Source: Bauldia sp. (GTDB lineage: Bacteria; Pseudomonadota; Alphaproteobacteria; Rhizobiales; Kaistiaceae). Taken from it: 41,577 bases of DNA. The DNA lies in assembly GCF_020442045.1 (NCBI RefSeq), contig NZ_JAGRLA010000035.1:1-41577 (forward strand). Reading direction: 5' to 3'. Position numbers and translations under genes: made by a program. Positions 1,416 through 28,903 of this stretch are shown here, piece by piece (positions within the stretch are counted from its first letter, which is position 1; each line of letters starts with the position of its first letter). Below the pieces are notes generated by a model that saw nothing but the letters and a program-made list of their open reading frames with translations, was not told the DNA's origin and made no database searches.

Positions 1416-1445
1416 AAAAACCCGGCCCGGTTCGGCCAACCGGGT
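1416..1445 (-). terminator. Rho-independent-like terminator of the eight-gene operon
   Basis: Read on the minus strand, CCCGGTT (1444-1438), loop GGCCG, AACCGGG (1432-1426) form a perfect 7-bp stem. Five bases later comes TTTTT (1420-1416). The site lies 34 bases after the stop codon of the last minus-strand lactonase gene, where the operon's terminator should be. Confidence 0.6.
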
Positions 1446-1478: not shown

Positions 1479-2357
1479 TCAGCCGCCGAAACGCGGCTCC
1501 GGAACGCCCGTGATGCCGAGGTCGTGGATGGCGAAGAGGCTGCCGCGCAGCACGCCGTCGCCGGGGAAGCGCGGCAGCGGCGGCTTGGCCATCGAGGTGA
1601 CGTAGAGGATATCGAGATTGGGCCCGCCGAAATTGACGCTGGTCACCTTCTTGACCGGCATGTCGATCACCCGGTCGACCGTGCCGTCCGGCGCGTAGCG
1701 ATAGAGCTTCCCGACATAGACGCCGGCGCTCCACACATAGCCCTCGCTGTCGACGGTCGCGCCGTCGGCGGCGCCGCCCTCCGAGGTATCGACCTTGGTG
1801 AAGGTCCGGCGGTTGGAGACGCCGCCGGTGTCGAGGTCGTAGTCATAGGCCCAGATCTCGCCCGACCAGGAATCGGCGAAATAGAAGATCCTGCCGTCCG
1901 GGCTCCAGCACGGGCCGTTGGAGACGATGATGCCGTCGTCGATCTTGTGGACCGACATGTCGGGATCGAGCCGGTAGAGGGCGCCGTTCGGGCCCGATTC
2001 CTGGGTATCCATCGAGCCGGCGACGAAACGGCCGCGCCTGTCGACCTTGCCGTCATTGATCCGGTTGGCGTCCTTGCCGGGCTCGGGATCGTGGATCAGC
2101 TCGACGTCGCCGGTCCCGAAGTCCAGCGTATGGAAGCCGTTGGCGAGCGAGCAGATCGCGCCGTTGCCGTCCTTGCGGATGGCGATGGAGCCGATCTTCT
2201 CCGGCACGTCCCATGCCCGGATCTCGCGGCCGTCATGGGTCGAGCGGAAGACCCGGCCGTCAAAGGAATCGATCCAGTAGAGCCGCTGCTGCTCGACGTC
2301 CCAGAGCGGTCCTTCCCCGAGAGTCGTCTTGACGTCGACCAGAACCTCGATGCGCAT
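1479..2357 (-). CDS. SMP-30/gluconolactonase family lactonase (distal copy)
   Basis: A 292-aa six-bladed beta-propeller of the SMP-30/LRE family, which uses a divalent metal to hydrolyse aldonolactones to aldonates. The family's metal and substrate residues are visible: Glu15 in LGEGPLWD, Asn101 in RINDGKVD, Asn147 in SNGPCWSPD and Asp198 in GAADGAT. There is no signal peptide, so it is cytoplasmic. It is the last gene of the minus-strand operon, 31 bases after its paralogue at 2389-3261. The ATG is preceded by GGGGAAAGGA at good spacing. The two copies share long identical stretches around the active site but differ in the loops after residue 120 and near the C-terminus. That suggests duplication with changed substrate preference. 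The exact lactone is unknown. Confidence 0.88.
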   Translation of the reverse strand: MRIEVLVDVKTTLGEGPLWDVEQQRLYWIDSFDGRVFRSTHDGREIRAWDVPEKIGSIAIRKDGNGAICSLANGFHTLDFGTGDVELIHDPEPGKDANRINDGKVDRRGRFVAGSMDTQESGPNGALYRLDPDMSVHKIDDGIIVSNGPCWSPDGRIFYFADSWSGEIWAYDYDLDTGGVSNRRTFTKVDTSEGGAADGATVDSEGYVWSAGVYVGKLYRYAPDGTVDRVIDMPVKKVTSVNFGGPNLDILYVTSMAKPPLPRFPGDGVLRGSLFAIHDLGITGVPEPRFGG

Positions 2358-2388
2358 GGCGTTGTCCTTTCCCCAATCAGATTATCGG

Positions 2389-3261
2389 TCAGCCGGCGAA
2401 GCGCGGCTCGGGCAGGCCGCGGACGCCGAGCCCATGGACGGCGAAGACGCAGCCGGCCTCGCGCTCCAAGTGATAGGCGTTGCCCATCGGCCGGGCCATC
2501 GACGTGACATAGGCGATGTCGAGATTCGGGCCGCCGAAGATGACGCTGGTCGTCGACTGCACCGGCAGGCCGACGATGCGGTCGACGACGCCGTTCGGGT
2601 CGAAGCGGATCAGGCGGCCCGAATAGACCTCGGCGCTCCACAGGTATCCCTCCTCGTCGACCGTCGCGCCGTCGGGAAACCCGCGCAGCTTGTCGAAGGT
2701 GGTGAAGGTACGCCGCGAGAGGAGGTTGCCGGTCTCGATGTCATAGTCGTAGGCGTAGATGACCTTCCGCATCGAGTCGGCGAAATAGAAGGTCTTGTCG
2801 TCGGGGCTCCAGCACGGCCCGTTGGAGACGACGATATCGGTGTCGAGGAGATGCAGCGACAGGTCGGGATCGAGCCGGAACAGCTTGCCGACCCCGTCGC
2901 GCTCCTCGAAATCCATCGAGCCGGCGATGAAGCGGCCGCGGCGATCGACCTTGCCGTCATTGAGGCGCGGCCGCAATTCGCCCGGCTGCGTCTCGTTGAT
3001 GCGGGTCACCGCGCCGGTGCCGAAGTCGAGGAAGTGGAAGCCGCTCCGCAGCGCGACCACCGCGCCGCCGTGTTGCCGCAGAGCCATCGAGCCGACCGGC
3101 TCCGGCAGCCGCCAATGCCTGACGTCGCGGCCGGCCGCGTCGCAGGAATGGACCGCCGGGCCGTAGGAATCGATCCAGTAGAAGCGCTGCTCCTCGACAT
3201 CCCAGAGCGGCCCCTCCCCGAGGCTGTCCTTGTCCTCGATCAGGACCTCGATCCTCAGCAT
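2389..3261 (-). CDS. SMP-30/gluconolactonase family lactonase (proximal copy)
   Basis: The 290-aa paralogue of the next gene, same fold and length. Active-site residues are Glu16 (LGEGPLWD), Asn101 (RLNDGKVDRRGRF), Asn147 (VSNGPCWSPD) and Asp197 (FPDGAT). As a cytoplasmic lactonase it would hydrolyse a lactone formed by one of the two dehydrogenases upstream. It starts with ATG after a strong GGGGAGGGGAAG ribosome site and lies 12 bases after the BKACE stop, so it is part of the same transcript. Two lactonases in one pathway are unusual. They could handle gamma- and delta-lactones, two stereoisomers or two different sugars. Confidence 0.88.
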   Translation of the reverse strand: MLRIEVLIEDKDSLGEGPLWDVEEQRFYWIDSYGPAVHSCDAAGRDVRHWRLPEPVGSMALRQHGGAVVALRSGFHFLDFGTGAVTRINETQPGELRPRLNDGKVDRRGRFIAGSMDFEERDGVGKLFRLDPDLSLHLLDTDIVVSNGPCWSPDDKTFYFADSMRKVIYAYDYDIETGNLLSRRTFTTFDKLRGFPDGATVDEEGYLWSAEVYSGRLIRFDPNGVVDRIVGLPVQSTTSVIFGGPNLDIAYVTSMARPMGNAYHLEREAGCVFAVHGLGVRGLPEPRFAG

Positions 3262-3273
3262 CTTCCCCTCCCC

Positions 3274-4206
3274 TCAGAACGCCACCTTGTCGCCGCCCTT
3301 GAGCTCGAGGATCTCGCGCGCCTCGTCGGAGGTGGCGATCTCCTTGCCGAGGCCCTCGATGATCTTGCGGACGCGGGCCACCTGGTCGGCATTGGTCCTG
3401 GCGAGCTCGCCGGGACCGTTCCACAATGAATCCTCGAGACCGACACGGACGTTGCCGCCCATCGCCGCCGCCTGGGCGGCGATCGCCATCTGGTTCCGGC
3501 CGGCGCCGAGCACCGACCAGCGATACTGGTCGCCGAACAGGCGATCGGCGGTGCGCTTCATATGCGCGACGTCCTCCGGATGCGGGCCGATGCCGCCGAG
3601 GATGCCGAAGACCGACTGGACGAAGAAGGGCGGCTTGACGATGCCGCGGTCGGCGAAATGGGCGAGCGTGTAGAGATGGCCGATGTCGTAGCACTCGATC
3701 TCGAAGCGGGTGCCGTTCTCGGCGCAGGTCGACAGGATGTATTCGATATCGGCGAAGGTGTTCTTGAAGATGCGGCTGACCGATTCCTCGAGATAGGGCC
3801 GCTCCCAGTCGTATTTGAACTCCTTCTGGCGCTTCAGCATCGGGTAGAGGCCGAAATTCATCGAGCCCATGTTGAGCGAGGCGACCTCCGGCTTGAAGGT
3901 CGCGGCCGGGCGGACGCGCTCCTCGATCGCCATGGTCGGCGCGCCACCGGTGGTGATGTTGACCACGCAGCCGGAGCGCTGCTTGATCACCTTGAGGAAG
4001 GGCGCGAAGGCCTCCGGCGACTGGTCGGGCTGGCCGTTCTCCGGATTACGGGCATGAAGGTGGACGATCGCCGCGCCGGCCTCCGCCGCGCCGATCGCCG
4101 CGTCGGCGATCTCCTCAGGCGTGATCGGCAGGTAGGGCGACATCGAGGGGGTGTGGATGGCGCCGGTAACCGCGCATGTGATGATGACCTTGTCCTTGGC
4201 TGCCAT
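3274..4206 (-). CDS. Beta-keto acid cleavage enzyme (BKACE, ex-DUF849)
   Basis: The 310-aa TIM-barrel protein has the BKACE signature. The zinc ligands are His49 and His51 in VHLHARNP and Glu258 in RVGLEDSLW, with Arg254 and Asp259 beside them. The family condenses a 3-keto acid with acetyl-CoA and splits it into a CoA thioester and acetoacetate; the founding member is 3-keto-5-aminohexanoate cleavage enzyme (Kce). In Kce an acidic residue after the CGA motif is, as I recall it, near the substrate amine. Here the motif is TGAIHTPSMSP with no acid, which fits a hydroxylated, non-amine substrate. The gene is 16 bases after the HAD-fold dehydrogenase, which could supply the 3-keto acid. The family assignment is firm; the substrate is inferred. 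Confidence 0.88.
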   Translation of the reverse strand: MAAKDKVIITCAVTGAIHTPSMSPYLPITPEEIADAAIGAAEAGAAIVHLHARNPENGQPDQSPEAFAPFLKVIKQRSGCVVNITTGGAPTMAIEERVRPAATFKPEVASLNMGSMNFGLYPMLKRQKEFKYDWERPYLEESVSRIFKNTFADIEYILSTCAENGTRFEIECYDIGHLYTLAHFADRGIVKPPFFVQSVFGILGGIGPHPEDVAHMKRTADRLFGDQYRWSVLGAGRNQMAIAAQAAAMGGNVRVGLEDSLWNGPGELARTNADQVARVRKIIEGLGKEIATSDEAREILELKGGDKVAF

Positions 4207-4222
4207 TTTCCCTGTTCCTCGC

Positions 4223-5170
4223 TTACTCGCTGATATCCTTGGCGGCGCGCCGCTTGTGCGCGGCCAGCGCCATCAGCCGCCGATCCCGCCAGGCCTGGTG
4301 CCTGACCAGGTCCTTTTCCGGCAATTTCGCGCGGCGGTCCCGTTCGATGACGTCCATCACCGGTCCGGCCCAGTCGACGCGGCGCTGCATCTGGGGGAAG
4401 AGATTCTCGTAGATGCCCTGGTAGCGGATCGCATAATCGCGGATGCCGCCCGGCGCGTTGAGATCGATGGTCTCGAACGGCCCCATGAAGGACCAGCGCA
4501 GCGCCAGCCCGTCGCGGATGCCGATATCGACGTCCTCGATGGTCGCATAGCCGTCGGCGACCAGCCGGAAGGCCTCCTCGAGCAGCGCGCCCTGCATGCG
4601 GTTCATGATGAAGCCGTCGAGCTCGCGCTTCATGACGATCGGCGCCTGGCCGCAGGAGACGAGGAAGTCGCGGACGCGCTCGACCACCTCCGGCGCGGTC
4701 CATGGCGCCGGGACGACCTCGGCCGCCGGAATGAGATAGGGCGGGTTGATCGGATGGACGACGAGGCAGCGGGCGCGGCCTTCGAGCTCCTCGGTGAAGT
4801 GGGAGGGCAGGATCGCCGAGCTGGAGCTGGCGATGGAGGCATCCGCCGGCGCCGCCGCGTCGAGGCGGGGGAAGATCTCCTTCTTCATCGCCACCGTCTC
4901 GGGCGTGTTCTCCTGGACATGGGAGACACCGGCCAGCGCGGCCTCGAGATCGTCCTCGACGCGGATGCTGGCCAGCACGTCGTCCGGCTCGCGCCCCATC
5001 AGCAGGTCGTTGGCCTTCAGATCGGGCAGGACGCCGGCGATGAAGTCGATCGCCCGCCGCGGGGCTTGGCTGTCGTTGTCCCATAGGGCGACGTCGTGGC
5101 CGGCGCGCGCGAAGGTGATCGCCCAGGCGCGGCCGATGAAGCCGGAGCCGATGATCGCGGTCTTCGACAT
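4223..5170 (-). CDS. 3-hydroxyacyl-CoA dehydrogenase-fold NAD dehydrogenase (gulonate 3-dehydrogenase/carnitine dehydrogenase type)
   Basis: The 315-aa protein starts with a Rossmann motif IIGSGFIGRAW (Gly8, Gly10, Gly13) and Asp31 at the end of beta-2, so NAD is the likely cofactor. Catalytic-region residues of the family are present: the Ser cluster 116-119, His140 in VVHPINPPYLIP, Glu152 and Asn191 in GFIMNRMQ. Small members such as L-gulonate 3-dehydrogenase (lambda-crystallin) and L-carnitine dehydrogenase oxidise a 3-hydroxyl of a free acid to a 3-keto acid, exactly what BKACE needs. The ATG directly abuts the stop of the SDR gene with no intervening base. The sugar-type transporter and the lactonases argue for a sugar acid over carnitine. 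Confidence 0.85.
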   Translation of the reverse strand: MSKTAIIGSGFIGRAWAITFARAGHDVALWDNDSQAPRRAIDFIAGVLPDLKANDLLMGREPDDVLASIRVEDDLEAALAGVSHVQENTPETVAMKKEIFPRLDAAAPADASIASSSSAILPSHFTEELEGRARCLVVHPINPPYLIPAAEVVPAPWTAPEVVERVRDFLVSCGQAPIVMKRELDGFIMNRMQGALLEEAFRLVADGYATIEDVDIGIRDGLALRWSFMGPFETIDLNAPGGIRDYAIRYQGIYENLFPQMQRRVDWAGPVMDVIERDRRAKLPEKDLVRHQAWRDRRLMALAAHKRRAAKDISE

Positions 5171-5980
5171 CTACAGGGTCTCCACATTGGCATCGACGCC
5201 GAGCGACTGGCCCGAGACATTGGCGCCGGCATCGGAAAGCAGGAAGGCGATCATCGCCGCGACGTCATGCGGGCTCACCATGCGGCGGAGCGACACCCGC
5301 GAGAGATATTCCGCCTCCATCTCCTCATAGGACACCCCGACCTGCTCGGCGCGGGCGCGGATGACCCCGGTCATGCGCGGCCCCTCGACAATGCCGGGGA
5401 GGATCGCATTGACCCGGATATTGGCGGGCCCGAGCTCCTTGGCGAGGCTCTGGGTGAAGCCGATGACGCCGAATTTCGCCGAGGAATAGGGCGTCCGGAA
5501 CGCGTAGCCGTGACGGCCCGCGGCCGAGGACATGTTGACGATCGAGCCGCCGCCCGCCGCCTTCAGCATCGGCACGCCACGATGGGCGCAGAGGAACTGG
5601 CCGGTCAGGCAGATATCGAGGGTGCGGCGCCAATCGGCCGGATCGATCTCGTCGACGCCGCCGGTCGGACCGGCAATGCCGGCATTGTTGATCAGGGCAT
5701 CGAGGCCGCCGAGCGTGTCGGCGACGGCGGCGAACATGCGGTCGACATCGCCGTCGTCGGAGACATCGGCCTTGATCCGGCCGGCATCGGGAAAGTCGCG
5801 CCCGAAGGCATCGAGAGCCTCGTCGGAGACGTCGCAGACGAAGATCCGCGCGCCGTGACGGGCGAGCCGGCCGGCGATGGCGAGGCCGATGCCGCCTGCG
5901 CCGGCGGTGATCAGGACGCGCTGCCCGGCGATTCCCGCCGCAAGGTCGTTGCTCGCAGCCGCTTCAGTCATGGCATTCAA
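5171..5980 (-). CDS. SDR family NAD(P) dehydrogenase (sugar or sugar-acid)
   Basis: A classical short-chain dehydrogenase of 269 aa. It has the glycine motif TAGAGGIG (25-32), Asp50 as a likely NAD-selecting residue, NNAG (98-101), catalytic Ser152, Tyr165 and Lys169 (YSSAK), and the C-terminal VSGQSLGVD segment. In this operon it most plausibly oxidises the imported sugar at C1 to the lactone. It could instead oxidise C3 of the aldonate, with the HAD-fold enzyme doing another step; sequence alone does not decide. It follows the permease by 9 bases. The first ~15 residues are poorly conserved, and ATG at the fourth codon is an alternative start. Confidence 0.87.
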   Translation of the reverse strand: MNAMTEAAASNDLAAGIAGQRVLITAGAGGIGLAIAGRLARHGARIFVCDVSDEALDAFGRDFPDAGRIKADVSDDGDVDRMFAAVADTLGGLDALINNAGIAGPTGGVDEIDPADWRRTLDICLTGQFLCAHRGVPMLKAAGGGSIVNMSSAAGRHGYAFRTPYSSAKFGVIGFTQSLAKELGPANIRVNAILPGIVEGPRMTGVIRARAEQVGVSYEEMEAEYLSRVSLRRMVSPHDVAAMIAFLLSDAGANVSGQSLGVDANVETL

Positions 5981-5989
5981 TCCTTACTG

Positions 5990-8077
5990 TCAACTCGTTT
6001 CCCGCCGGTCGCGGAGCGCGATGACCGCGCCGAGGACGACGACTCCGTAGATGATCGCCCGGGTGGCGTAGGGCAGCGTGGTACCGGCAAGCAGGGTCTG
6101 GAGTGCGGTGAGCAGCAGGACGCCGCCCAGCATTCCGAGGTAATGCCCGCGGCCGCCGGTGATCAAGGCCCCGCCGACCACGACGACCGCGATCGAGGGC
6201 AGGAGATAGTCGTCGCCCATGCCGAGGCTCGCCTGGCCGGAAAAGCCGGTCAGCAGGATGCCGACCAGCGCCGAGCAGACCGCCGACAGCACGTAGACGC
6301 CGACCAGCGTGCGGCCGACCGCGATCCCGGAAAGCTGCGCCACCCGGACGCCGTTGCCGATGCCGTAGACCCGCCGGCCGAAGGAGGTGCGCGACAGGAA
6401 GACCACCGCGAAGATGACGAAGGCGACCATGAAATAGACGACCGGGGTGATCCCGAGGAATTTCGAGGTCATGAAGGCGCGCAGCATCGGCGAGGAAAAG
6501 CCGGCCGGCGTGCCGCCGGAATAGAGCAGCGCCGCCCCTTGCAGGACGCCGTTGGTGGCGAGCGTCACGACGATCGGCGAGAGCCCCAGCCAGACGATGC
6601 CAAGGCCGTTGACGAGACCGATGACCACCGCGACGAGGATCACGACCGGAAGCGCATAGACCAGCGCCGCGTCCGATCCCTGCACCATGCCGGCGAGAAG
6701 GATGCCGCAGAAGCCGATCGTCCAGGGCACCGACAGGTCAAGCCCGCCGGTGAGGATCACCGTGCCCTGCCCCAGCGCCAGGATGGCGAGGAAGCTCGAC
6801 AGGACGATCAGCGAGTTCCAGTAGGTCCAGTTGAAGATCGCGTTGCCAAGCCAGAACTGGGTGACGAGGACGACCAGCACCATCGCGACATAGGCGGGCA
6901 GCGCATAGCGGAGCGCCTCGCCGTGGCGGCTCCAGAAGGATGGCGCTTCGCCGGTCCGCGATTCCGGCCGGGTCACGTCGGTCATCGACAGCCGCCGGTC
7001 GCCGCCGCCGATCTGGGAGGGCAGCATGCCGGCGCGCCAGGCGCCGATCCGCGTCGCCGCACCGCGGATCTGGCGGGCAAGCTCCGAGTCGCGCGAGATG
7101 GAGCCGGCGAGCACCGCGAGCAGCAGGATGACGCCCTCGGCGATCGTCGAATAATAGGCCGAGACGTTGAGGACGAGCAGGATGTTGACGACGATCATCA
7201 GGATATAGGCGCCGAAGATCGAGCCGATCGGGCCGCCCTTGCCGCCGCCGAGCCGGGTGCCGCCGACAACCACCGCCGCGAAGATCGACAGGAGCAGCGG
7301 ATTGCCGACCAGCGGGTCGCCGGAACCGGTCTGGGCGCTGATGAAGACGCCGCCGAGGCCGTAGAAGCCGCCCGCCACCACATAGACGAAGAAACGCGTC
7401 CAGGCGACGCGAAGGCCGGCCGAGGCGGCGGCATGCGGATCGCTGCCGACGGCATAGATCGCCGTGCCGAACCGCGTCCGCTTCATCCACAGCCAGAAGA
7501 AGCCGACGACGACAAGCAGCGCGATCGGCATCGGGATCCAGTTCGGCACCAGGTCGCCGAGATAGAAACCGCCGATCGAGGGCGAAACGAAGCCGCCGGG
7601 CTTGTCGAGGATGAGCAGCGTCACGCCCTGGATGATGAACATCGTCGAGAGGGTGACGACGATCGGCTGCAGGCGGACGAAGGCGATGAAGAAGCCGTTG
7701 ACCGCGCCGATCCCCATGCCGACGCCGATGCCGACCAGCGTCCACAGCAGGACATTGGCCTCGAAGTTCATCGGGTCCATGCTGGTCGCCAGCACGACAT
7801 TGACCAGCGACAGCACGGCGCCGGCCGACAGGTCGAAGCCGCCGGACAGGATGACGATGGTCTCGCCGACCGCGGCGAGCGCCAGCGTCGCGCCGCCGCT
7901 CGACAGGAAGCTGATGTCGAAATAGCTCAGCGGCCCGGCGCTGATCAGGTCGACGACAAAGAGCAGGATGGCGAAGACGACGACCGCCGTCGCCAGCCCG
8001 CGGAAGCGGTTGAAACGAATGTCGAGACCGCGCTTGCGTTGTCCCTCGTCACGATCATAGGACGCCGAGGCGCTCAT
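5990..8077 (-). CDS. Fused ABC sugar permease (two RbsC-type domains)
   Basis: The 695-aa membrane protein contains two consecutive RbsC/BPD_transp_2-type permease units. The first, about residues 25-330, has GGFDLSAGAVLSLVN, VTLSTMFIIQGV and VVVGGTRLGGGKG. The second, about 385-690, has GGLDLSVPWTIGF, VTLATNGVLQGAAL and VVVVGGALITGGRG. A ~55-residue hydrophilic cytoplasmic linker (rich in Arg, Ser and Gly) joins them. Ordinary RbsC proteins are ~320-350 aa and dimerise, so this one supplies both halves of the channel in one chain. The two halves are clearly diverged, indicating an old duplication-fusion and possibly an asymmetric pore. Its ATG overlaps the ATPase stop by 4 bases, so translation is probably coupled. 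Confidence 0.9.
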   Translation of the reverse strand: MSASASYDRDEGQRKRGLDIRFNRFRGLATAVVVFAILLFVVDLISAGPLSYFDISFLSSGGATLALAAVGETIVILSGGFDLSAGAVLSLVNVVLATSMDPMNFEANVLLWTLVGIGVGMGIGAVNGFFIAFVRLQPIVVTLSTMFIIQGVTLLILDKPGGFVSPSIGGFYLGDLVPNWIPMPIALLVVVGFFWLWMKRTRFGTAIYAVGSDPHAAASAGLRVAWTRFFVYVVAGGFYGLGGVFISAQTGSGDPLVGNPLLLSIFAAVVVGGTRLGGGKGGPIGSIFGAYILMIVVNILLVLNVSAYYSTIAEGVILLLAVLAGSISRDSELARQIRGAATRIGAWRAGMLPSQIGGGDRRLSMTDVTRPESRTGEAPSFWSRHGEALRYALPAYVAMVLVVLVTQFWLGNAIFNWTYWNSLIVLSSFLAILALGQGTVILTGGLDLSVPWTIGFCGILLAGMVQGSDAALVYALPVVILVAVVIGLVNGLGIVWLGLSPIVVTLATNGVLQGAALLYSGGTPAGFSSPMLRAFMTSKFLGITPVVYFMVAFVIFAVVFLSRTSFGRRVYGIGNGVRVAQLSGIAVGRTLVGVYVLSAVCSALVGILLTGFSGQASLGMGDDYLLPSIAVVVVGGALITGGRGHYLGMLGGVLLLTALQTLLAGTTLPYATRAIIYGVVVLGAVIALRDRRETS

Positions 8078-9615
8078 GCCACCGCCTCCGTCCCGGCCGT
8101 GTCCGCGCCGAGCGCCGCCCGCATGATGGCGTGCTCCGACAGATCGTCGGCGGCGATCTCGGCGACGATCCGCCCGGCATAGAGCACGATCACCCGGTCG
8201 CAGAGATGCACCAGTTCGGGGATCTCGGTGGAATGGAAGAGGATCGAGCCGCCGAGCTCCGCGAAAGCCCGCATCAGCACATAGAGCTCATGCTTGGTGC
8301 CGACGTCGATACCACGGGTCGGGTCGAAAAGGAGCAGGGTCCGGCTCTCGGCGAAGAGCCACTTGGCGACGGCGATCTTCTGCTGGTTGCCGCCCGAGAA
8401 GGAGCCGACCCGGGTCCACAGCGCCCGGTGGTCGACCTCGACCCGGTCGAAGACCCGCTGCACCGCCTCCCGCTCCCGCCCCGTATCGATGAGACCGCCG
8501 CGGCTGAGACGGTCGATGACCGGCAGCGACACGTTGTGACGTCCGTTGAGCTTGAGGAACAGCGCCTCGGTCTTGCGGTCCTCCGGCAGCAGGCCGAGGG
8601 CGATATTCGGCCGGATCGCGTCGCGCGGCGAGGCGATGGTCACCGGCCGGCCGTCGACGCGCAGGCCCCCGGCGCTGATCTCGCGCATGCCGAAGGCGGC
8701 GAGGAAGAGGTCGAGCTGGCCCATGCCCTGGAGGCCGGCAACGCCGAGGATCTCGCCCTTGCGGAGCGAGAAGCTCGCGTCGCGGAGCTTGGTTCCGGCC
8801 GAGAGACCGTCGACGGCGAAGACTTCCTCCGCCTTGTCCGGTGTCGTCTCCGGCCGGGCGGGAAAGGTCTGGGCGATCGACCGGCCGATGATCATCTCGA
8901 TGATCTCGGTATCGGTGAAATCGGCGATGGAGCCGGTGGCGATGTGGCGGCCGTTGCGCAGCACCGTCAGCTTGTCGCAAAAGGCGCGCACCTCACGCAT
9001 GCGGTGGGAGATGAAGACCACCGTCGTGCCTTGCGCCTTGAGCCGGGCGATCACCTCGCCGAGCCAGTCGACGTCGCGGCCGGCCAGCGTCGAGGTCGGC
9101 TCGTCAAGGAGCAGGATCTTCGGCTTGCGGTAGATCGCGCGGGCGATCTCGATCTTCTGCTGGAGGGCGAGGTCGAGGTCGCCGACCTCGTCGCGCAGGT
9201 TGACCGAGAAGCCGAGCGAATCGAGATGGGCGCGGACCTCCGCCTCGGCCGAGCGACGGCGGATCATCGCGGTCGGCCCGACCGGCGCGTAGGGAATCAG
9301 CATGTTGTCGAGCACGGTCAGGTCGCGGACCAGGGTCATCTCCTGGAAAGCGGTCTGGATGCCGAGGGCATGGGCGGCGCGCGGCGAACGCAGGCGGCTC
9401 GGCCGGCCATGGACCTCGAAGCGGCCCTTGTCCGGCTCGATCAGGCCCGAAAGCAGCTTGACGATGGTCGACTTGCCGGCGCCGTTCTCGCCGAGCAGGG
9501 CATGCACGGTCGCGGGCGCGATCTCGAAGCTGACATCGTCAACGGCGACCGTGGCGCCAAATGCCTTGCGCAGCCCTTCGACCGCCACCGCGGGGGCGCC
9601 GCCAGCCTCCGTCAT
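8074..9615 (-). CDS. Sugar ABC transporter ATP-binding protein (RbsA type)
   Basis: The 513-aa protein has two tandem nucleotide-binding domains as in RbsA/MglA. Domain 1 has a canonical Walker A LLGENGAGKST (40-50), an altered signature DLDLALQQK where LSxGQQQ is usual, and Walker B LLLDEPTS (168-175). Domain 2 has the degenerate Walker A usual for this family (GLQGMGQLD), a canonical FSGGNQQK signature (406-413) and LLLFDPTRGID (428-437), where DEP is replaced by FDP. So ATP hydrolysis probably depends on one composite site. ATG 9615 is chosen over GTG 9618 because AAGGGAGGGG is better spaced for it. It powers uptake with the fused permease (8-kb end) and the binding protein at 9726. Confidence 0.9.
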   Translation of the reverse strand: MTEAGGAPAVAVEGLRKAFGATVAVDDVSFEIAPATVHALLGENGAGKSTIVKLLSGLIEPDKGRFEVHGRPSRLRSPRAAHALGIQTAFQEMTLVRDLTVLDNMLIPYAPVGPTAMIRRRSAEAEVRAHLDSLGFSVNLRDEVGDLDLALQQKIEIARAIYRKPKILLLDEPTSTLAGRDVDWLGEVIARLKAQGTTVVFISHRMREVRAFCDKLTVLRNGRHIATGSIADFTDTEIIEMIIGRSIAQTFPARPETTPDKAEEVFAVDGLSAGTKLRDASFSLRKGEILGVAGLQGMGQLDLFLAAFGMREISAGGLRVDGRPVTIASPRDAIRPNIALGLLPEDRKTEALFLKLNGRHNVSLPVIDRLSRGGLIDTGREREAVQRVFDRVEVDHRALWTRVGSFSGGNQQKIAVAKWLFAESRTLLLFDPTRGIDVGTKHELYVLMRAFAELGGSILFHSTEIPELVHLCDRVIVLYAGRIVAEIAADDLSEHAIMRAALGADTAGTEAVA

Positions 9616-9683
9616 CACCCCTCCCTTCGCCGGCCGTCGGCGCGGCCGCTGGCTATTTCAAGGTGTTTCATTCCGGATGGATG

Positions 9684-9709
9684 GGAGGACGGCGCGCACG
9701 CCGCCCTCC
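9684..9709. other. Stem-loop between binding-protein and ATPase genes
   Basis: GGAGG-A-CGGCG, loop CGCA, CGCCG-C-CCTCC (684-709 of this kilobase pair) form a G/C-rich hairpin with one mismatch. It has no T tail. Such hairpins after binding-protein genes commonly protect the upstream mRNA or lower distal expression, which would give excess binding protein over ATPase; that role is inferred. Confidence 0.45.
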
Positions 9710-9725
9710 GGTTCGTGAGTCGCGA

Positions 9726-10859
9726 TCAGAGTTCCGGCTGACCGACCAGAGCGGCGTTGAGGCCGATCTCGGGGGTCTCTTCAGAGAAGATCGAGGCGAA
9801 CCAGCCCGGATTGGTGACGATCGATGGCTGGAACGCATTGCAGCCCGCCTTCATCTCTTCCCAGGTGCCTTCGACGCAGAGCTTGACCGTCTCGCTGGTG
9901 ACGATCGGCAGCGGCAGGACGGTGAGCTTCGGCACGTCGCCGCCGTCGAGCTTCTGGACCGCCAGCTTCAGGGCGAGACCACCCGAATAGGGCGGCGAGG
10001 CGTAGGAGATGCGCGGCGCGCCAAGCGGCGCATAGGGGCTTGCCGCACCTTCGACCTCGGTGTCCGGCGACAGCATCTGGATGCGGCCGCCATTCGAGCC
10101 CTCACCGGCGCAGGGGAGCAGCCCCTCCGGCGTCTTGCCGGCTTCGAGTTGCATGGCGTTGGCGGTGTAGCAGCCGGCCTGCATCCACAGCCCGTCGATC
10201 TCGTCCCAGTCATGGGTGGCGAGGATCTTCGACAACTCGGTGCGGGCCACGGCCTGCGACCACATGCCGACCGCCTCGCCCACGACGTTGATGTCGGGAT
10301 GCTTGGCGAAGACTTCCTTCGCGGCGGCGGTGCGCTGGGTGTCGACCGAAGTGCCCGGCACGCCGGTCACCAGGACGATATTGCCCTTGCCGCCGAGCTG
10401 CTCGACCAGCCACTCGGCCGGGATGCGGCCCGCCTCGCTCTGGTCGATATGGACGTTATAGGCGCATTCCTCGGTGATCTCGGCGTCATAGGCGAAGACC
10501 AGGACGCCCTTGTCGCAGGCGTTCTTGACCACCTGGTTCAGCGCGGTCGGCGAGATCGGGAAGGTCACGATCGCGTCGGCGCCCTGCTGCACCATGGCAT
10601 TGATCTGCTGGATCTGACGCTGGGCGTTCGGCCCGGCGACCTGGACCTGCAGGTCGACCTTGTCGGCCATGCCCGGCGCGGCCGCCATGGCCTTCACCAT
10701 GTTCGCCGCCTCGGCCTGCCAGTCGTTGCCGATGTAGCTCATGCTCAGGAAGATCTTGTACTTGTCCTGGGCCTGGGCCGATGTGCCGGTCAGCGCCGCT
10801 CCGCCAAGGAGCAGAGCCGCGACGGCGGCAGTGCCGATAGTCCGTGAAGCGAGTCTCAT
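9726..10859 (-). CDS. Periplasmic sugar-binding protein (RbsB/PBP type 1)
   Basis: The 377-aa precursor has a clear Sec signal peptide: positive N-terminus, hydrophobic core 10-24 and a likely cut after SAQA at residue 30. The mature part has the type 1 periplasmic-binding fold, with IFLSMSYIGNDWQ at the ligand cleft, QIQQINAMVQQGADAIVTFP, VLVFAYDAEI and GNIVLVTGVPGTS. It is the first gene of the operon, with an AGGGAGGA ribosome site 5 bases before ATG. RbsB-type proteins bind pyranoses, furanoses and related polyols. The ligand here is unknown, and several Cys residues in the C-terminal half could form disulfides. Confidence 0.9.
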   Translation of the reverse strand: MRLASRTIGTAAVAALLLGGAALTGTSAQAQDKYKIFLSMSYIGNDWQAEAANMVKAMAAAPGMADKVDLQVQVAGPNAQRQIQQINAMVQQGADAIVTFPISPTALNQVVKNACDKGVLVFAYDAEITEECAYNVHIDQSEAGRIPAEWLVEQLGGKGNIVLVTGVPGTSVDTQRTAAAKEVFAKHPDINVVGEAVGMWSQAVARTELSKILATHDWDEIDGLWMQAGCYTANAMQLEAGKTPEGLLPCAGEGSNGGRIQMLSPDTEVEGAASPYAPLGAPRISYASPPYSGGLALKLAVQKLDGGDVPKLTVLPLPIVTSETVKLCVEGTWEEMKAGCNAFQPSIVTNPGWFASIFSEETPEIGLNAALVGQPEL

Positions 10860-10876
10860 GCAGTTCCTCCCTGTTT

Positions 10877-10898
10877 TTTGGCCACGCTCGCGGCCAAA
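10877..10898. promoter_or_regulatory. Inverted repeat TTTGGCC/GGCCAAA in operon leader
   Basis: Seven-base perfect arms (10877-10883, 10892-10898) around 8 bases, just upstream of the ribosome site of the binding-protein gene. It may be a second operator or a 5' leader hairpin. Confidence 0.35.
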
Positions 10899-10905
10899 CC
10901 TCCGT

Positions 10906-10922
10906 TTTGATCATAGATCAAA
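10906..10922. promoter_or_regulatory. Candidate GntR operator TTTGATC-ATA-GATCAAA
   Basis: A perfect palindrome with 7-base arms and a 3-base centre, in the 139-base gap between the binding-protein gene and the divergent gntR gene. Size, symmetry and position fit the operator of a dimeric FCD-type GntR regulator controlling the operon and itself. The assignment is by position and symmetry; no footprint consensus is known to me for this protein. Confidence 0.55.
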
Positions 10923-10998
10923 TGTCAAAGATCGTGCAAGATGGGATCGTGACGCCTAGAAGTGCTGCGATGCTCTGACACCAACCGACGGAGGAGGC

Positions 10999-11676
10999 AT
11001 GGAATCCACGGTCGACAAGCTGGACATCCAGGTCGAACCGCTGGCCCGGGATACCCTGCAGCAGCGCGTCTACGATCAGGTCGCCGGCCTGATCCTCGAC
11101 GGGGGGATCGCCCCCGGGCAACTCGTCACCATCCAGAGCCTCGCCGATTCCTTCGGCGTCAGCACGATGCCGGTCCGCGAGGCGCTGAAGCGGCTGACCG
11201 CGGAAAAGGCGTTGACCGTGGTGTCGGGACGGTCGATGGGGATCCCGCCGCTGTCACTCGAACGGCTCAACGACCTCCGCAGGGTCCGTATCGAGCTCGA
11301 AGGCTCGGCGATCGCCTGGGCCGCCGGCAGCATCGGCAAGGATGCCCTGGCCAGCCTCGATGTCGACCTCGAGCGCATGGACCGGGCGATCGCCTCGAGC
11401 AGCGCCAGGGACTTCCTCCAGGCCAACCGATCCTTCCATTTCGGGGCCTATAAGGCGTCGCAATCGCCGACCCTGGTCTCGCTGATCGAGATCGTCTGGC
11501 TGCAGATCAGCCCGTATTTCAACCTGCTGCGCGGCTCCGGCAACTACGTCGCTGCCAATGCCAACCATCGCCGCATGGCGGAAGCGCTCGGCCGCCACGA
11601 CCCGGATTCGGCGCGGGAGGCAATGGCCGCCGACATCAACGACGCTTACGATATCCTGGCGACGCTGCTCGGATAG
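10999..11676 (+). CDS. GntR family regulator, FCD subfamily
   Basis: The 225-aa regulator has an N-terminal winged helix (about 18-85), with the recognition region LADSFGVSTMPVREALKRL, and a C-terminal all-helical FCD ligand domain (about 90-215). In the FCD part, the helix with NRSFHFGAY and the later NHRRMAEAL carry the His residues that usually bind a metal and the ligand's carboxylate. FCD regulators of this type often sense a sugar acid or pathway intermediate. ATG is preceded by a strong GGAGGAGG. It is divergent from the uptake/catabolic operon and is its likely repressor. Its 3' end faces the tamB stop with only 15 bases between them and no evident terminator. Confidence 0.9.
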   Translation: MESTVDKLDIQVEPLARDTLQQRVYDQVAGLILDGGIAPGQLVTIQSLADSFGVSTMPVREALKRLTAEKALTVVSGRSMGIPPLSLERLNDLRRVRIELEGSAIAWAAGSIGKDALASLDVDLERMDRAIASSSARDFLQANRSFHFGAYKASQSPTLVSLIEIVWLQISPYFNLLRGSGNYVAANANHRRMAEALGRHDPDSAREAMAADINDAYDILATLLG

Positions 11677-11691
11677 GGCGGCCGCCGCGGC

Positions 11692-14600
11692 TCAGTATTC
11701 GTATTCGTAATTCAGGCCGAGCGAGCCCGAGCCGTCGTCGCCGGCCGTGCCCCGCGCCTTGAGGTTGCGGGTGATATCGAGATCGATGGTGACCCGCCCG
11801 GCGCCGCCGCTGTCCTGCTCGAAGCCGACGCGGAGATTGTCGTTGATCCGCTTGCCGACGCCGACGGTGGTGCCGCCGGAATCGTTCTCGCGGACATCGA
11901 TATCGTCGAGGCCGGTCATCTTGCGGACGCGGGTGAAAATCCCGTCGCCACGGGCGAAGGCGCCGGTGAACTGGCCGACCGCGTCGACGAGCTGGGCGGC
12001 CTGGAAGGCCGTCAGGTTGCCGACGGTACGGTTGAACAGGATCTGGGAGATCACCTCCTCTTCCGGCAATTCGGGCCTGGATGAGAAGGAGATCTGCGGA
12101 TCGTCGGCGGGACCGTCGACATTGACGATCGCGGTGATTTCCGCCGTCCGGGTCTCCGCCTCGAAGTCGAGGACCGGGATGAAGTCACCGGTGAAGGTCA
12201 TGCGGCCCCGGGTGAAGTCGAAGCGACGGCCGATGACCTCGATGCGGCCGCGCGACAGCTCGAAACCGCCGACGATCACCGGCGCGTCGGTGGTGCCGGT
12301 GACCTCGATCGAGCCGCCGACGCCGGCATCCAGCCCGAAACCGCGGACCGAGATGGCGCTGCGGTTGGTGGTGGAAACCGTGATGCCGAGGGCCAGTCCG
12401 CCGCTCGCCTGGCCGCCGCCGCCGGTCGCGGCCGGCGGCGCGGGCTTGACCGGCTGGACGAAGCCCGGCTCGGTGTTGACGTGGCGGACATCGAGGGCGG
12501 CGCCGCCGCCGAAGCTGTCCGGCAGCAATATCTCCGCCTTGGAGATGTCGAGGCGGCCGCCGACCTTGCCGGTGGTCATCACCGGTCCGGTGACGGTGAG
12601 AGCCGCGGAGAAGGTAGCGTCGACCATCTCGCCGTCGACATAGCGGCCGTCCCGGATGCTGACCTTCATGTTGGCGGGCAGCCCGGCGGCGGGATCGATC
12701 TCGACCGACCCGCCGACGGTGATAGCACCGCCCTGGGCCATCTGGCCCTTGAGGTCGATCGTGGCGGTCTGGCCGCTGAGGCGGATCTGGCCGGCGACAC
12801 CTTTCACGCCGAACCGCGTCTGGGCGTCGACAAAGACGGCGTTGGCCAGCGTCACGCTCCCCGAGATCGCGGTCGGGCCTGCGACATCGAGCGCCAGCCG
12901 GGCGGTGCCGCCAAGATCGATTTCCCGGTCGACGAACAGCGCCACGAGCTCGAGCGGGGCCGTGCCCTCCACCCTGATATTCGGGTCGCCGCCGGAAAAC
13001 GGTACGCGGCCGTTCGCCTCCAGGGTCGCGCCGGCGCCGGAAATCCTCGCGGCAACCGTCGTCGCATCGAGCGTCGCCTCGCCGCTGCCGGAAATCGCCA
13101 GCGCGGGAAGCCCGGCCGACGCGGTCTGGGCAACGGAGAAACCGGAGAGATCGACCTGCCAGGCGACATTCGGAGCATCGGTTGTACCGGTCGCCCTGAC
13201 CTTGCCGGAGAGGGTTCCGGCGGCACCGAGGCCGGGCGAGAACTGGTTGGCGAGGGCGAGCGAGACCTTGTCGATGGTGACGTCGACGCCGAGCTGCGGC
13301 GATACCGGACCGGCCGCGGTTATCCGGCCGCCGCTGAGGGCGAGGTCGAGCCGCTCGACCGCCATCTGGTCGCCGAGCCGGACGCGCACCGGCCCATTGA
13401 GCCTGATCGGGACGGCATACGCATTGCCGGTCAGCCGGCTGACCTCGAGGAGCTGGCCATCGCCTTCCATGGTCAGGCTGCCGGCGCCGTCGAGGTCCAT
13501 GTCCGGCCCCTTGGCCGCGACCTCGAAGCGGGTATCGTTGCCTTCGACCTTCGCCGACATCCGCGCCGTGTCGATCTTGACCGAGCCGGCGTCGATTCCC
13601 TCGAGATCGACCTCGCCGTCGACCTGCGGCGTGCCCAGCGCGTCGGCGATCCTGACATTGCCCTCCGCCTTGCGGGCGACGAGCGTCGCGGCCGAGATAT
13701 TCCGACCGTCAAAGGCGACGTCGACCGCCTGTTTCCCGCCATCCGGCTGAAAACGGATCTTGGCCTCGGCCGAGCCGGCGGCCTCGACCAGGGCAAGTGC
13801 CGCGAGCGTCGCGACGTTGGGGACGTCGAGCGACAGCGAACCGGAAAGCAGCCCGCCGTCAGTCTGTTCGATGGCGCCGGTGATCCGGTTCTCGGCGATC
13901 GCGAGGTCAACCGCGGGAAGCGCGAAACGGCCCGAGGCGACATCGAGCATCGCCTCCGCCGTTCCCTGCAGCGGCCGTCCGGCGAAGGAGCCGCCCAGCG
14001 CCAGGGCGGCGTGCCAGCCGGAATCGACCGGCTCGCCGGCGGCATGCACGGTCGCATCGGCGATCGGCTGGCCGACGAGCTCGCCATTGGCAACCGCCAG
14101 CATCACGTCGAAGGTCGGGGCGTCGAGCGCGCCGCTGACCTTCGCCTTGAACGTCGCGGCGCCACGCGACTGGTCGGCGACCAGCGCGAGGTCGGAAAGG
14201 CCGCCGGCAAGGTCTGCGTCGATGGTCGAACCGGCAAGCGCGACGTTGCCGGAGAGCGTTACCGCGTCGCCGTTCACCGCGAGGTCGGTGATCGCGATCC
14301 GGCCCGTCGCGTCGTCCGACACCTTGAGGGCGAAGCGGGTCTGGCCGGCGAGCAGCGGCGCCACCGAAGGCTCGCCCGGATCGAGGTCGGTCGCCGTGCC
14401 CTCGATCGCCAGCGCGATGCCGTCGGCGCCGAAATAGCGGCCGTTGACGGTTGCCCCGACCGCGCCGGCGAGGTCGCGTCCGGCCAGCGGCGACAGCGGC
14501 GCGAGATCGGCGAAGCGGAAGCGGAGCTCGCCGGTCGCCGTCTCGGACGAAACGTCGCCGGAGAAGAGCGCCCGTCCGCCGATCGCCGACAGGTCGGCGT

Positions 14601-16002
14601 CGAGCTTCGCCGACATCGCCGCGACATCGAGCGTCCCGTCGGCGGTGACGAGCAGCGGCTGGGCGTCGGTCGCGACGATGTTCCCGGCCGCGAGGTTGAT
14701 CGCATCCGCTTCGACGCGAACCGCGAAGGGCAGCTCCCTGACCATCAGCGGGTCGTCGCCCTCCGCCTCGACGGCAAGCGACAGGCCGATGCCCGGCACC
14801 GCGATTCCCGACACCGAAAGGCCGGCAATGCGGCCGATCAGGTCGAGCCGGCGGCTCCCCTCGCCCGGTGCGATCCGTCCGTTGAGGGTCAGGCTGTCGA
14901 AGCGCAGCGGATCGGGGCCACCGACCGGCAGGGTCAGGGCGCCGCCATGCGGGCCGGCCGCGTCGATCTTCAACGCGATATCGGTATCGGCGCCGCCGAA
15001 GACGCCGGAAGCAGCAACGCTCACCGCGCCGGTCGAGACCTTGCCGTCATGGATGACGACGCGCGGAAGGCTGGTGCCGGCGACGGCGCGCCACTCCGCA
15101 TCGATGGCGACGTCGATGCTGCCGGCAAGCAGGTCAGCGAAGCCCGGCGGGACGAGCTCGGCAAGATCGCCCTCGCCGGTCACCGTCAGCCTCTGTCCGT
15201 CGCCGGCGGCGGCGAAGCCGAAGCGGCCGGAGAAGCGGGCGGCGCCGTCCGATGTCAGCGAGACGGCGCCGGTGAGGTCACCGTCGGCAAGCGACGACTT
15301 GGCGGACAGGCGGTAGCCGGGTCCGCCGTCGCGTCCCATCAGGCCGACGAGGATGCCGTTCGCCGCCTCTTCCACCGTCAGGTCGACACCGATCGGCGCC
15401 GTGCCGCCGGCGCGATCGACCAGGGCGCTGACCGAGCCGAGCTGGCCATCGAGCCGCTCGGCCTTGACGTCGGCGTGGATGCCGCCATCGGCACGCAGCG
15501 CGAAGGCGCCGCCAACCGCGAGCGCCGCGGGTTGACCGACCAGCTCCTCGCCGAGCTCGAGCCTGGCGATCGCCAGCTTGTCGACGGAGATCGGGAAGAG
15601 GCCGCCGCCACCGCCGGTGCCGGCATCGGCGTCGCCGGCGCCACCCGCCGCATCCTCCAGCTCGGGCACGCGGACGAAGGAGATGCGGTCGGCGCCGATC
15701 GAGTCGAAGGCGATGTTGGCGGTCAGCAGGGCGCCGATGTCGAGATCGATCTCAAGCCCGTCGATTTCGGCGAAGACGCCCCTGGTGTCGGAGGCAACGA
15801 TCTTGTCGGCGCCGAAGGCGAAAGGCGGCCAGCCGGTCAGCGCGCCGATCGACACCGTCATGCCGTTGCCCGACGCGGCCCGCTCGACGATGCCGGCCAG
15901 CACCGCACGCCCGGGCGGCGTCGCCAGCAGGACGAGCAGCAGCCCGACCAGGGCGATCAATCCGACGATCGCAAATCCTGCATAGCGAAGCGCGCGCCGC
16001 AT
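11692..16002 (-). CDS. tamB: TamB, translocation and assembly module inner-membrane component
   Basis: The 1436-aa protein has one N-terminal transmembrane anchor (about 8-28, AGFAIVGLIALVGLLLVLLA). It continues as a very long run of amphipathic beta-strand repeats, typical of AsmA/TamB-like lipid-transfer bridges, and ends with the conserved TamB (DUF490) domain: SRGRIEVIGRRFDFTRGRMTF, then PELPEEEVISQILFNR and a C-terminal aromatic strand NYEYEY. It spans the periplasm between the inner membrane and TamA and takes part in outer-membrane protein insertion and/or phospholipid transport. It is somewhat longer than the E. coli protein (1259 aa). A Gly/Ala-rich low-complexity insert is visible near residues 120-135. 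It follows tamA by 33 bases in the same transcript. Confidence 0.93.
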   Translation of the reverse strand: MRRALRYAGFAIVGLIALVGLLLVLLATPPGRAVLAGIVERAASGNGMTVSIGALTGWPPFAFGADKIVASDTRGVFAEIDGLEIDLDIGALLTANIAFDSIGADRISFVRVPELEDAAGGAGDADAGTGGGGGLFPISVDKLAIARLELGEELVGQPAALAVGGAFALRADGGIHADVKAERLDGQLGSVSALVDRAGGTAPIGVDLTVEEAANGILVGLMGRDGGPGYRLSAKSSLADGDLTGAVSLTSDGAARFSGRFGFAAAGDGQRLTVTGEGDLAELVPPGFADLLAGSIDVAIDAEWRAVAGTSLPRVVIHDGKVSTGAVSVAASGVFGGADTDIALKIDAAGPHGGALTLPVGGPDPLRFDSLTLNGRIAPGEGSRRLDLIGRIAGLSVSGIAVPGIGLSLAVEAEGDDPLMVRELPFAVRVEADAINLAAGNIVATDAQPLLVTADGTLDVAAMSAKLDADLSAIGGRALFSGDVSSETATGELRFRFADLAPLSPLAGRDLAGAVGATVNGRYFGADGIALAIEGTATDLDPGEPSVAPLLAGQTRFALKVSDDATGRIAITDLAVNGDAVTLSGNVALAGSTIDADLAGGLSDLALVADQSRGAATFKAKVSGALDAPTFDVMLAVANGELVGQPIADATVHAAGEPVDSGWHAALALGGSFAGRPLQGTAEAMLDVASGRFALPAVDLAIAENRITGAIEQTDGGLLSGSLSLDVPNVATLAALALVEAAGSAEAKIRFQPDGGKQAVDVAFDGRNISAATLVARKAEGNVRIADALGTPQVDGEVDLEGIDAGSVKIDTARMSAKVEGNDTRFEVAAKGPDMDLDGAGSLTMEGDGQLLEVSRLTGNAYAVPIRLNGPVRVRLGDQMAVERLDLALSGGRITAAGPVSPQLGVDVTIDKVSLALANQFSPGLGAAGTLSGKVRATGTTDAPNVAWQVDLSGFSVAQTASAGLPALAISGSGEATLDATTVAARISGAGATLEANGRVPFSGGDPNIRVEGTAPLELVALFVDREIDLGGTARLALDVAGPTAISGSVTLANAVFVDAQTRFGVKGVAGQIRLSGQTATIDLKGQMAQGGAITVGGSVEIDPAAGLPANMKVSIRDGRYVDGEMVDATFSAALTVTGPVMTTGKVGGRLDISKAEILLPDSFGGGAALDVRHVNTEPGFVQPVKPAPPAATGGGGQASGGLALGITVSTTNRSAISVRGFGLDAGVGGSIEVTGTTDAPVIVGGFELSRGRIEVIGRRFDFTRGRMTFTGDFIPVLDFEAETRTAEITAIVNVDGPADDPQISFSSRPELPEEEVISQILFNRTVGNLTAFQAAQLVDAVGQFTGAFARGDGIFTRVRKMTGLDDIDVRENDSGGTTVGVGKRINDNLRVGFEQDSGGAGRVTIDLDITRNLKARGTAGDDGSGSLGLNYEYEY

Positions 16003-22250: not shown

Positions 22251-22282
22251 GCGTTAATATGCAGAACAACTTAATAGAGCGC

Positions 22283-22296
22283 AAAATATATATTTT
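22283..22296. promoter_or_regulatory. Perfect A/T palindrome AAAATATATATTTT
   Basis: A 14-base perfect palindrome in the divergent lysR/ilvD promoter region, in strong contrast to the G/C-rich surroundings. It could be the promoter melting region or a LysR-type site. LysR boxes usually follow T-N11-A with A/T-rich interrupted dyads, which this fits loosely. Confidence 0.4.
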
Positions 22297-22359
22297 ACAG
22301 TCTTTCGAGAACCGACTAAGCCATGGCCCGGGAAACGCGAGGATCAGGAGCAAGCCGCC

Positions 22360-24033: not shown

Positions 24034-24062
24034 CCGGCCCGCCCGTCCGCCGCGCCATTGCC

Positions 24063-24875: not shown

Positions 24876-24923
24876 CGCTGATCTCCGACCGGGTTGCGGA
24901 AAGGTTCGGCAACCCCTATTAAA

Positions 24924-24958
24924 TGACCATTGGTCACTTATTTAATGACCAATGGTCA
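24924..24958. promoter_or_regulatory. Double TetR operator TGACCATTGGTCA / TGACCAATGGTCA
   Basis: Two 13-base near-palindromes (24924-24936 and 24946-24958) that are exact reverse complements of each other, with centres 22 bases (about two helical turns) apart. They sit between divergent SDR and tetR genes in a short A/T-rich promoter region. This is a textbook TetR-family operator layout controlling both genes. Confidence 0.75.
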
Positions 24959-24981
24959 TTTGTCAAAGGGATTCGTCGCGC

Positions 24982-28878: not shown

Positions 28879-28903
28879 CCGGGCGACGGGCAGGGAAGAG
28901 GCA

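Follow-up and report, generated by a model that had tools for sequence, protein, structure and literature searches.

Organization and conservation of the operon

The subject of this work is a predicted import and degradation operon in a 41,577-base stretch of DNA (hereafter the window), contig NZ_JAGRLA010000035.1 of Bauldia sp., whose 4.19 Mb genome is assembled in 196 contigs (G000). Eight minus-strand genes occupy positions 1479–10859 and, read from a divergent GntR gene, follow the order RbsB-RbsA-RbsC/C-SDR-HAD-BKACE-SMP30-SMP30 (Table 1), where SDR is a short-chain dehydrogenase/reductase, HAD a dehydrogenase of the 3-hydroxyacyl-CoA dehydrogenase fold and BKACE a beta-keto acid cleavage enzyme. 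An earlier note on this DNA had described the same run, and all the families named score over the Pfam cut-offs. Its description of the genes as abutting or overlapping holds for gaps of 31, 12, 16, 0, 9 and -4 bases, counted from the SMP-30 end, but not for RbsB and RbsA, which are 107 bases apart. Outside the span of that note, the divergent regulator gene, a palindrome and a terminator-like hairpin also form part of the unit.

Table 1. Coordinates of the operon genes and accompanying features in the window
Feature	Position	Strand	Support
Terminator-like hairpin 3' of the last gene	1422..1444	-	consensus match only
SMP-30/gluconolactonase family protein 1, predicted lactonase	1479..2357	-	PF08450, 273.7 bits
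SMP-30/gluconolactonase family protein 2, predicted lactonase	2389..3261	-	PF08450, 268.4 bits
BKACE, predicted 2-deoxy-3-keto-pentonate cleavage enzyme	3274..4206	-	PF05853, 370.4 bits
HAD-fold dehydrogenase (3HCDH), predicted free-acid 3-dehydrogenase, lambda-crystallin/L-gulonate-3-dehydrogenase-like	4223..5170	-	NF004783
SDR, predicted deoxyribonate-type 3-dehydrogenase	5171..5980	-	Pfam; YSSAK and GAGGIG motifs; tree
Fused double RbsC-type permease, 695 aa	5990..8077	-	two PF02653 (BPD_transp_2) stretches
RbsA-type ABC ATPase	8074..9618	-	PF00005, two stretches
RbsB-type periplasmic binding protein	9726..10859	-	PF13407 (Peripla_BP_4), 168.3 bits
Palindrome TTTGATCATAGATCAAA, predicted operator of the GntR regulator	10906..10922		TGATC-N3-GATCA pattern
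Divergent GntR/FCD regulator	10999..11676	+	PF00392 and PF07729 over cut-off

With a Peripla_BP_4 binding protein, a double ATPase and a BPD_transp_2 permease, the ATP-binding cassette (ABC) importer has the composition of the CUT2 (Rbs) type; none of its proteins reached the cut-off of an NCBIfam model for a specific sugar. The permease is a fusion of two RbsC-type proteins that is retained across relatives. The two SMP-30 proteins are 57% identical and share the typical motifs LGEGP, RINDGK, SNGPCWSPD and DGATVD; the first was aligned with regucalcin (3g4e).

A search of 397 genomes of the order for the fused permease gave relatives at E ≤ 1e-150 in 21. We re-read 25 Rbs-type loci, from four genus mates, three named plasmids, 17 order genomes and one genome of the gammaproteobacterial class; a locus on a short contig (L188), a divergent one (L189), one that is the same as G003 (L016) and the Caballeronia-type loci stand outside this set. 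SDR, RbsC/C and SMP-30 genes are present in all 25, HAD and BKACE genes in 24 each and GntR in 23 (one of the two exceptions ends at a contig edge and the other has a LacI-family gene instead). A second SMP-30 gene occurs in 11 loci, in 10 of them as a tandem pair. All five genomes of the window's genus have the HAD gene within the RbsC/C-SDR-HAD-BKACE-SMP30 context, and the operon copy is the only BKACE in the window genome. The gene order in Phyllobacterium zundukense is identical to that of the window, both SMP-30 genes included. Among 321 genomes of the class of Pseudomonas simiae, discussed below, four matches were revealed (G028, G751, G847 and G859), and the block of G859 is complete and lies under a LacI-family gene. 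Because the same genes recur in the same order in other genera and families, the block is more than a chance assembly. Judged from its sequence, the unit is a genuine and conserved operon, likely of catabolic type.

Reduced and divergent arrangements were also seen. The divergent locus L189 (G337; 6217–14955) contains an Rbs-type importer, a cupin, a HAD-fold enzyme (31%) and a BKACE (58%) opposite a tannase-family gene, and has neither SDR nor SMP-30. On a plasmid of Mesorhizobium B2-1-1 (L142; 8181–9945) the block is reduced to SDR and HAD, with an FCD fragment about 8 kb away. A match on a plasmid of Pseudomonas sp. MPC6 was set aside, as its context is different and no BKACE is annotated there. 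A literature search, most results of which were not examined in full text, led to no published account of this gene set that we recognised.

The pattern TGATC-N3-GATCA occurs only once in the window. Among 24 GntR-RbsB intergenic spaces, that of the window included, 12 contain it; the 23 other loci (486,801 bases) have 15 occurrences in all, 11 of them within this space. According to the published description, GTGATCAC precedes the GntR gene of P. simiae (PMC6365646). The GntR protein of the window would bind the palindrome.

The cleavage enzyme and the two dehydrogenases

The window BKACE contains the HxH motif (H49/H51) that binds zinc in BKACEs, and H49, H51, E171, R254, E258 and D259 are invariant in all 150 aligned relatives. 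E171 and R254 are conserved with identical numbering in BKACE15 of Paracoccus denitrificans, for which their catalytic roles have been described (PMC11961710). The protein scores 561.4 bits with NF053538 (3,5-dioxohexanoate cleavage enzyme; cut-off 430). However, this model is not discriminating, because a deoxyribonate-type BKACE, assigned by gene order (L219), also passes it (503.9 bits); a function was therefore not taken from the model name.

In a tree of 61 BKACE sequences the window copy and those of G003 and G002 (97/91) are nested within a group of 21, the other 18 members of which are not Rbs-type (96/93), whereas 18 Rbs-type copies form a separate group (97/92), outside which L185–L187 also lie. 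A tree holding 21 Rbs-type BKACEs together was rejected by the approximately unbiased test (p-AU 0.0056), the group tested excluding four Rbs-type sequences (L185–L187 and L216) that were removed after the first tree had been inspected. At the DNA level, the window BKACE is 77.6% identical to that of G001, while the flanking HAD and second SMP-30 genes reach 83.7 and 85.5%; identity of the BKACE to the G003 and G002 copies is 86.5–86.6%. By its descent, the window BKACE is a replacement from a lineage associated with branched-chain-type (Liv) importers. In-place replacement from a source outside the main Rbs-type lineage took place at least twice in the operon history (window 3274–4206; L097 and L098; L185–L187). 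These swaps between importer types are a natural test of whether both lineages share one reaction; they suggest that this is so, and the Rbs-type and Liv-type lineages probably catalyse the same reaction.

Clusters with the Liv-type importer (SDR/GntR divergent from Liv-type ABC-HAD-BKACE) are found in Bosea, Microvirga, Cereibacter, Paracoccus and Burkholderiales. Their SDR, HAD and BKACE belong to the same subfamilies as those of the window, but the importer differs and the SDR falls in a separate clade. Among the named-genome loci, which are the best 80 of 569 confirmed BKACE loci, 55 contain HAD, 47 SDR and 46 both, and 79 have no SMP-30, unlike the Rbs-type loci. An adjacent BKACE was seen at 26 of 30 HAD loci from Burkholderiales, and an SDR at 23. 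In Sagittula (L146; 2211–10886) an SDR-HAD-BKACE set is divergent from genes for a TRAP transporter, an SDR and a degradative HMG-CoA reductase, and the substrate is possibly different.

HAD and BKACE are paired in carnitine degradation as well, and in many relatives an SDR-HAD-BKACE set goes with a Liv-type importer while SMP-30 is absent. It could thus be supposed that the window operon degrades a non-sugar 3-hydroxy acid (carnitine or a betaine, for instance), the importer and SMP-30 genes being incidental. With SMP-30 present at all 25 Rbs-type loci, this is highly improbable. Carnitine and betaine were rejected as substrates, since the L-carnitine dehydrogenase models remain far under their cut-offs (NF005716, 177.4 of 592 bits; NF005471, 159.2 of 414 bits).

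BKACE15 (PDB 8RIO, 8RIP and 9HNF), an enzyme of the CORE CO2-reduction cycle, belongs to the same subfamily as the window BKACE. Its source reports that it accepts 5-hydroxy-3-ketohexanoate and 3-ketopentanoate and that its native role is unknown (PMC11961710). A P. denitrificans plasmid gene (L278; 10001–10930) matches three long peptides of 8RIO exactly, and its product is 67% identical to the window BKACE. Unlike the latter, it sits in a Liv-type cluster: a HAD gene precedes it, SDR and GntR matches lie upstream and a Liv-type ABC ATPase match is in the cluster.

The SDR tree was built from 64 of 112 sequences, with Liv-type and Rbs-type rows thinned, and its outgroup branches are very long. 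The 21 Rbs-type SDRs form one side of a branch (support 100/98), and a branch supported at 99/97 unites them with SDRs of the deoxyribonate and Caballeronia types and with three others, the deoxyribonate-type ones being assigned by gene order; the alphaproteobacterial Liv-type SDRs are separate (100/100). Because of this grouping with SDRs of the deoxyribonate dehydrogenase kind, oxidation at C3 is a more likely role for the window SDR than oxidation of a sugar at C1.

The earlier note had proposed the opposite, namely that a 2-deoxy sugar enters the cell and is oxidised at C1 to the lactone by the SDR, and that the HAD-fold enzyme alone forms the 3-keto acid that BKACE cleaves. The CUT2-type importer agrees with this scheme, the SMP-30 pair implies a lactone, and a HAD-fold enzyme resembling L-gulonate 3-dehydrogenase could handle C3 alone. 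Besides the position of the SDR in the tree, its score with the D-xylose 1-dehydrogenase model of NCBIfam (143.5, cut-off 400) argues against a role in lactone formation, as does locus L184, which keeps SDR, BKACE and SMP-30, lacks HAD, and would be left without a 3-dehydrogenase. In addition, the SDR of Price et al. is described as inactive on deoxyribose (PMC6365646). We therefore consider the imported-sugar scheme unlikely. If the SDR is a 3-dehydrogenase, the operon is without an enzyme turning sugar into lactone, which makes an imported lactone the simplest reading. The lactone itself may be imported; alternatively, a sugar may be taken up and oxidised by enzymes encoded elsewhere.

The HAD-fold protein scores 468.9 bits with NF004783 (cut-off 347), its best PDB match is lambda-crystallin (3ado), and its HPINPPY motif stands against HPVNPPY in that comparison, which places it in the lambda-crystallin/L-gulonate 3-dehydrogenase group (HPxNPPY). 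Occurrence of SDR without HAD (L184) and of HAD without SDR (L189), in both cases with BKACE, is expected if the two enzymes are alternative 3-dehydrogenases. HAD-fold enzymes act on L-3-hydroxyls and FabG-like SDRs on D-3-hydroxyls; by analogy with this family stereochemistry, the two enzymes of the operon would perhaps each serve one of the opposite C3 configurations.

Relation to deoxyribonate clusters

The cluster PS417_07240–07265 of P. simiae WCS417 comprises genes for GntR, SDR, BKACE, a lactonase and two major facilitator superfamily (MFS) proteins (PMC6365646). Judged from the published gene descriptions, a GntR-type regulator, an SDR 3-dehydrogenase, a BKACE and a lactonase in one cluster are common to both systems, as are a palindrome with a GATC core before the regulator gene and the predicted products glyceryl-CoA and acetoacetate. 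The window differs in having an ABC importer instead of the MFS proteins, an additional HAD-fold dehydrogenase and two SMP-30 proteins as predicted lactonases. The molybdenum-dependent deoxyribose dehydrogenase, described for one of the four bacteria of Price et al. (PMC6365646), is not among the operon genes, which were the only ones inspected for it, and in this too the operon departs from P. simiae. The view of the earlier note that the gene set differs from known ones thus holds for three features (ABC importer, HAD-fold dehydrogenase, SMP-30 pair), but the regulator, SDR, BKACE and lactonase are the P. simiae set. In gene content, the operon and the published deoxyribonate pathway share a core of SDR, BKACE and lactonase.

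The P. bryophila cluster is described as comprising genes for AraC, BKACE, a transporter, a beta-hydroxyacyl-CoA dehydrogenase and SDR (PMC6365646). This Paraburkholderia bryophila/B. phytofirmans type (H281DRAFT_00640–00644) was represented here by L219 and L220, and the order AraC-BKACE-MFS-FabG-like reductase-SDR was found in Caballeronia Lep1P3 and P. largidicola. Its SDR and BKACE are homologous to those of the window (53 and 55% identity for Lep1P3). In contrast to the window, it has an AraC regulator, an MFS importer and no lactonase, and has as second dehydrogenase a FabG-like SDR (L219) instead of a HAD-fold protein; the Lep1P3 reductase is unrelated to the latter. The Caballeronia plasmids examined, two out of four, carry GntR-SDR-BKACE-MBL lactonase-RbsB-RbsA-RbsC/C-HAD-SMP30 and thus unite the P. 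simiae-type order with the Rbs-type importer.

Neighbouring genes and the predicted pathway

Genes that fit the processing of the products were found beside the operon in relatives only. On plasmid pRlX3 of R. ruizarguesonis the operon is followed by a chemoreceptor gene, larA-larC-larE-larB, a glycerate kinase gene and an enoyl-CoA hydratase/isomerase family gene and, beyond a short opposite gene, by CoA-transferase A/B (CtfAB) and thiolase genes. On A. tumefaciens pQ15_94_2 a chemoreceptor gene likewise follows the operon, and after it come a glycerate kinase gene and the counterpart of the hydratase/isomerase-family gene. In G529 a divergent (34%) DUF4147/MOFRL glycerate-kinase-family gene starts 60 bases past GntR, and in G399 CoA-transferase A/B genes lie beyond GntR, on the other side. 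Three of the 25 Rbs-type loci thus have an adjoining glycerate-kinase-family gene, whereas the remaining BKACE loci, 79 in number, have none (Fisher p 0.013, uncorrected for kinship). No further glycerate kinases were found in 34 flank pieces (671,668 bases from 18 genomes), and those of Rhizobium/Sinorhizobium plasmids examined, two of 298 matching records, stand in contexts different from that of the operon.

A glycerate kinase neighbour fits glyceryl-CoA as a product and hence 2-deoxy-3-keto-pentonate as the BKACE substrate, while CoA-transferase and thiolase neighbours fit acetoacetate; on these grounds glyceryl-CoA is the most probable acyl product. The Rhizobium hydratase/isomerase-family protein (L195; 28751–29815) scores 445.4 bits with the 3-hydroxyisobutyryl-CoA hydrolase model NF004127 (cut-off 274) and matches PF16113 end to end; the profile scan refers to this copy, with which the Agrobacterium protein shares 67% identity across the region matched. 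The two proteins are likely candidates for the glyceryl-CoA hydrolase, an enzyme that the GapMind authors list as unknown (PMC9007349), and offer a testable gene for this missing step.

From the genes, their order and their descent we infer the substrate, the order of steps and the products. The compound entering through the Rbs-type importer would be a 2-deoxy-pentonolactone, or else the corresponding 2-deoxy-pentose or 2-deoxy-pentonate; the SMP-30 proteins would open the lactone, and the SDR and/or the HAD-fold enzyme would oxidise C3 of the 2-deoxy-pentonate. BKACE with acetyl-CoA would split the 3-keto acid into acetoacetate and glyceryl-CoA. Hydrolysis of the latter, for which the 3-hydroxyisobutyryl-CoA-hydrolase-like protein would serve in Rhizobium and Agrobacterium, would yield glycerate for phosphorylation by a MOFRL glycerate 2-kinase; acetoacetate would be activated by a CoA-transferase or, in the window genome, by acetoacetyl-CoA synthetase, for which two matches over the cut-off were found there. 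One MOFRL kinase is also available in this genome.

The route from lactone through aldonate and 3-keto-aldonate to BKACE cleavage, outlined in the earlier note, is the best supported, and its 2-deoxy-C5 version is favoured by the kinase-family neighbours in three of 25 relatives; the 2-hydroxy (non-deoxy) option found no support here. We lean towards the view that the unit imports an oxidised 2-deoxy-pentose, e.g., deoxyribonolactone, and degrades it to acetoacetate and glyceryl-CoA. As a variant of the oxidative deoxyribonate pathway it would have a substrate class that is fairly well supported.

A number of observations weigh against this view. Glycerate kinase, hydrolase and CoA-transferase genes are all absent near the window's own operon; the sole MOFRL kinase of the genome adjoins UxuA and a PfkB kinase, and a search of the genome for CtfA found none. 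The listed genome matches to ECH_2 (PF16113) span only part of the model; being partial and present also in E. coli and other controls, they are uninformative. The three kinases scanned pass Pfam but miss the NCBIfam glycerate 2-kinase cut-offs (550 and 670 bits), and the three loci with such neighbours represent fewer than three independent events because those of Rhizobium and Agrobacterium are closely related. Inclusion of CoA-transferase in the count makes the contrast weaker (4/25 versus 3/79, p 0.055). At L172 (G336; 11998–12960) the importer operon has no BKACE between HAD and SMP-30. Lep1P3 and P. largidicola were labelled deoxyribonate-type from their gene order, not from a tested protein, and NCBIfam names the window BKACE a 3,5-dioxohexanoate enzyme, a name misleading for these genes. 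Finally, the substrate cannot be read from RbsB because the nearest solved chain (4pe6, 95 bits) is too distant, and ligand inference from the binding protein was dropped.

SMP-30 enzymes are broad in substrate, and 22 of the 25 loci have no adjoining glycerate kinase. The same chemistry might therefore act on the lactone of another 3-hydroxy acid: 3-hydroxy-butyrolactone/3,4-dihydroxybutyrate, giving glycolyl-CoA, or a 2-deoxyhexonolactone, giving tetronyl-CoA. BKACEs of the window's subfamily are indeed described as broad in vitro (PMC11961710). The kinship to deoxyribonate clusters and the kinase-family genes at three loci, one of them divergent, point instead to the 2-deoxy-pentonate, and we regard these other lactones as quite doubtful.

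A wider hypothesis, to be taken as speculative in its entirety, is a stereo-blind pathway for oxidised 2-deoxypentoses from oxidatively damaged DNA. 2-Deoxyribono- and related lactones would be imported whole and opened by SMP-30 proteins, and a D-specific SDR and an L-specific HAD would bring both C3 epimers to one 3-keto acid for BKACE. The hydrolase-like enzyme would be the missing glyceryl-CoA hydrolase, the nickel LarA-type racemase of Rhizobium would admit L-glycerate, and the Liv-importer clusters, BKACE15 included, would run the same cleavage. The Rhizobium LarA scores 340, the lactate racemase cut-off being 460.

The deoxyribonate-type reading would tie to this pathway a family of ABC-fed operons from Rhizobium, Agrobacterium, Phyllobacterium, the window's genus and others. 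It also predicts a native role for BKACE15.

Other features of the window

Elsewhere in the window, genes for a phosphoenolpyruvate-utilising enzyme and Dak1 (27863–32237) resemble a dihydroxyacetone kinase set of the phosphotransferase system type. An IlvD/Edd-type dehydratase gene lies next to a LysR gene, with a 2-oxoglutarate-Fe(II) oxygenase gene farther along (21324–27740). It should be mentioned that the GC content of positions 1–2000 (0.588) is below that of the rest, and that the codon bias of an NYN-domain gene at 402–1262 is weak relative to the rest.

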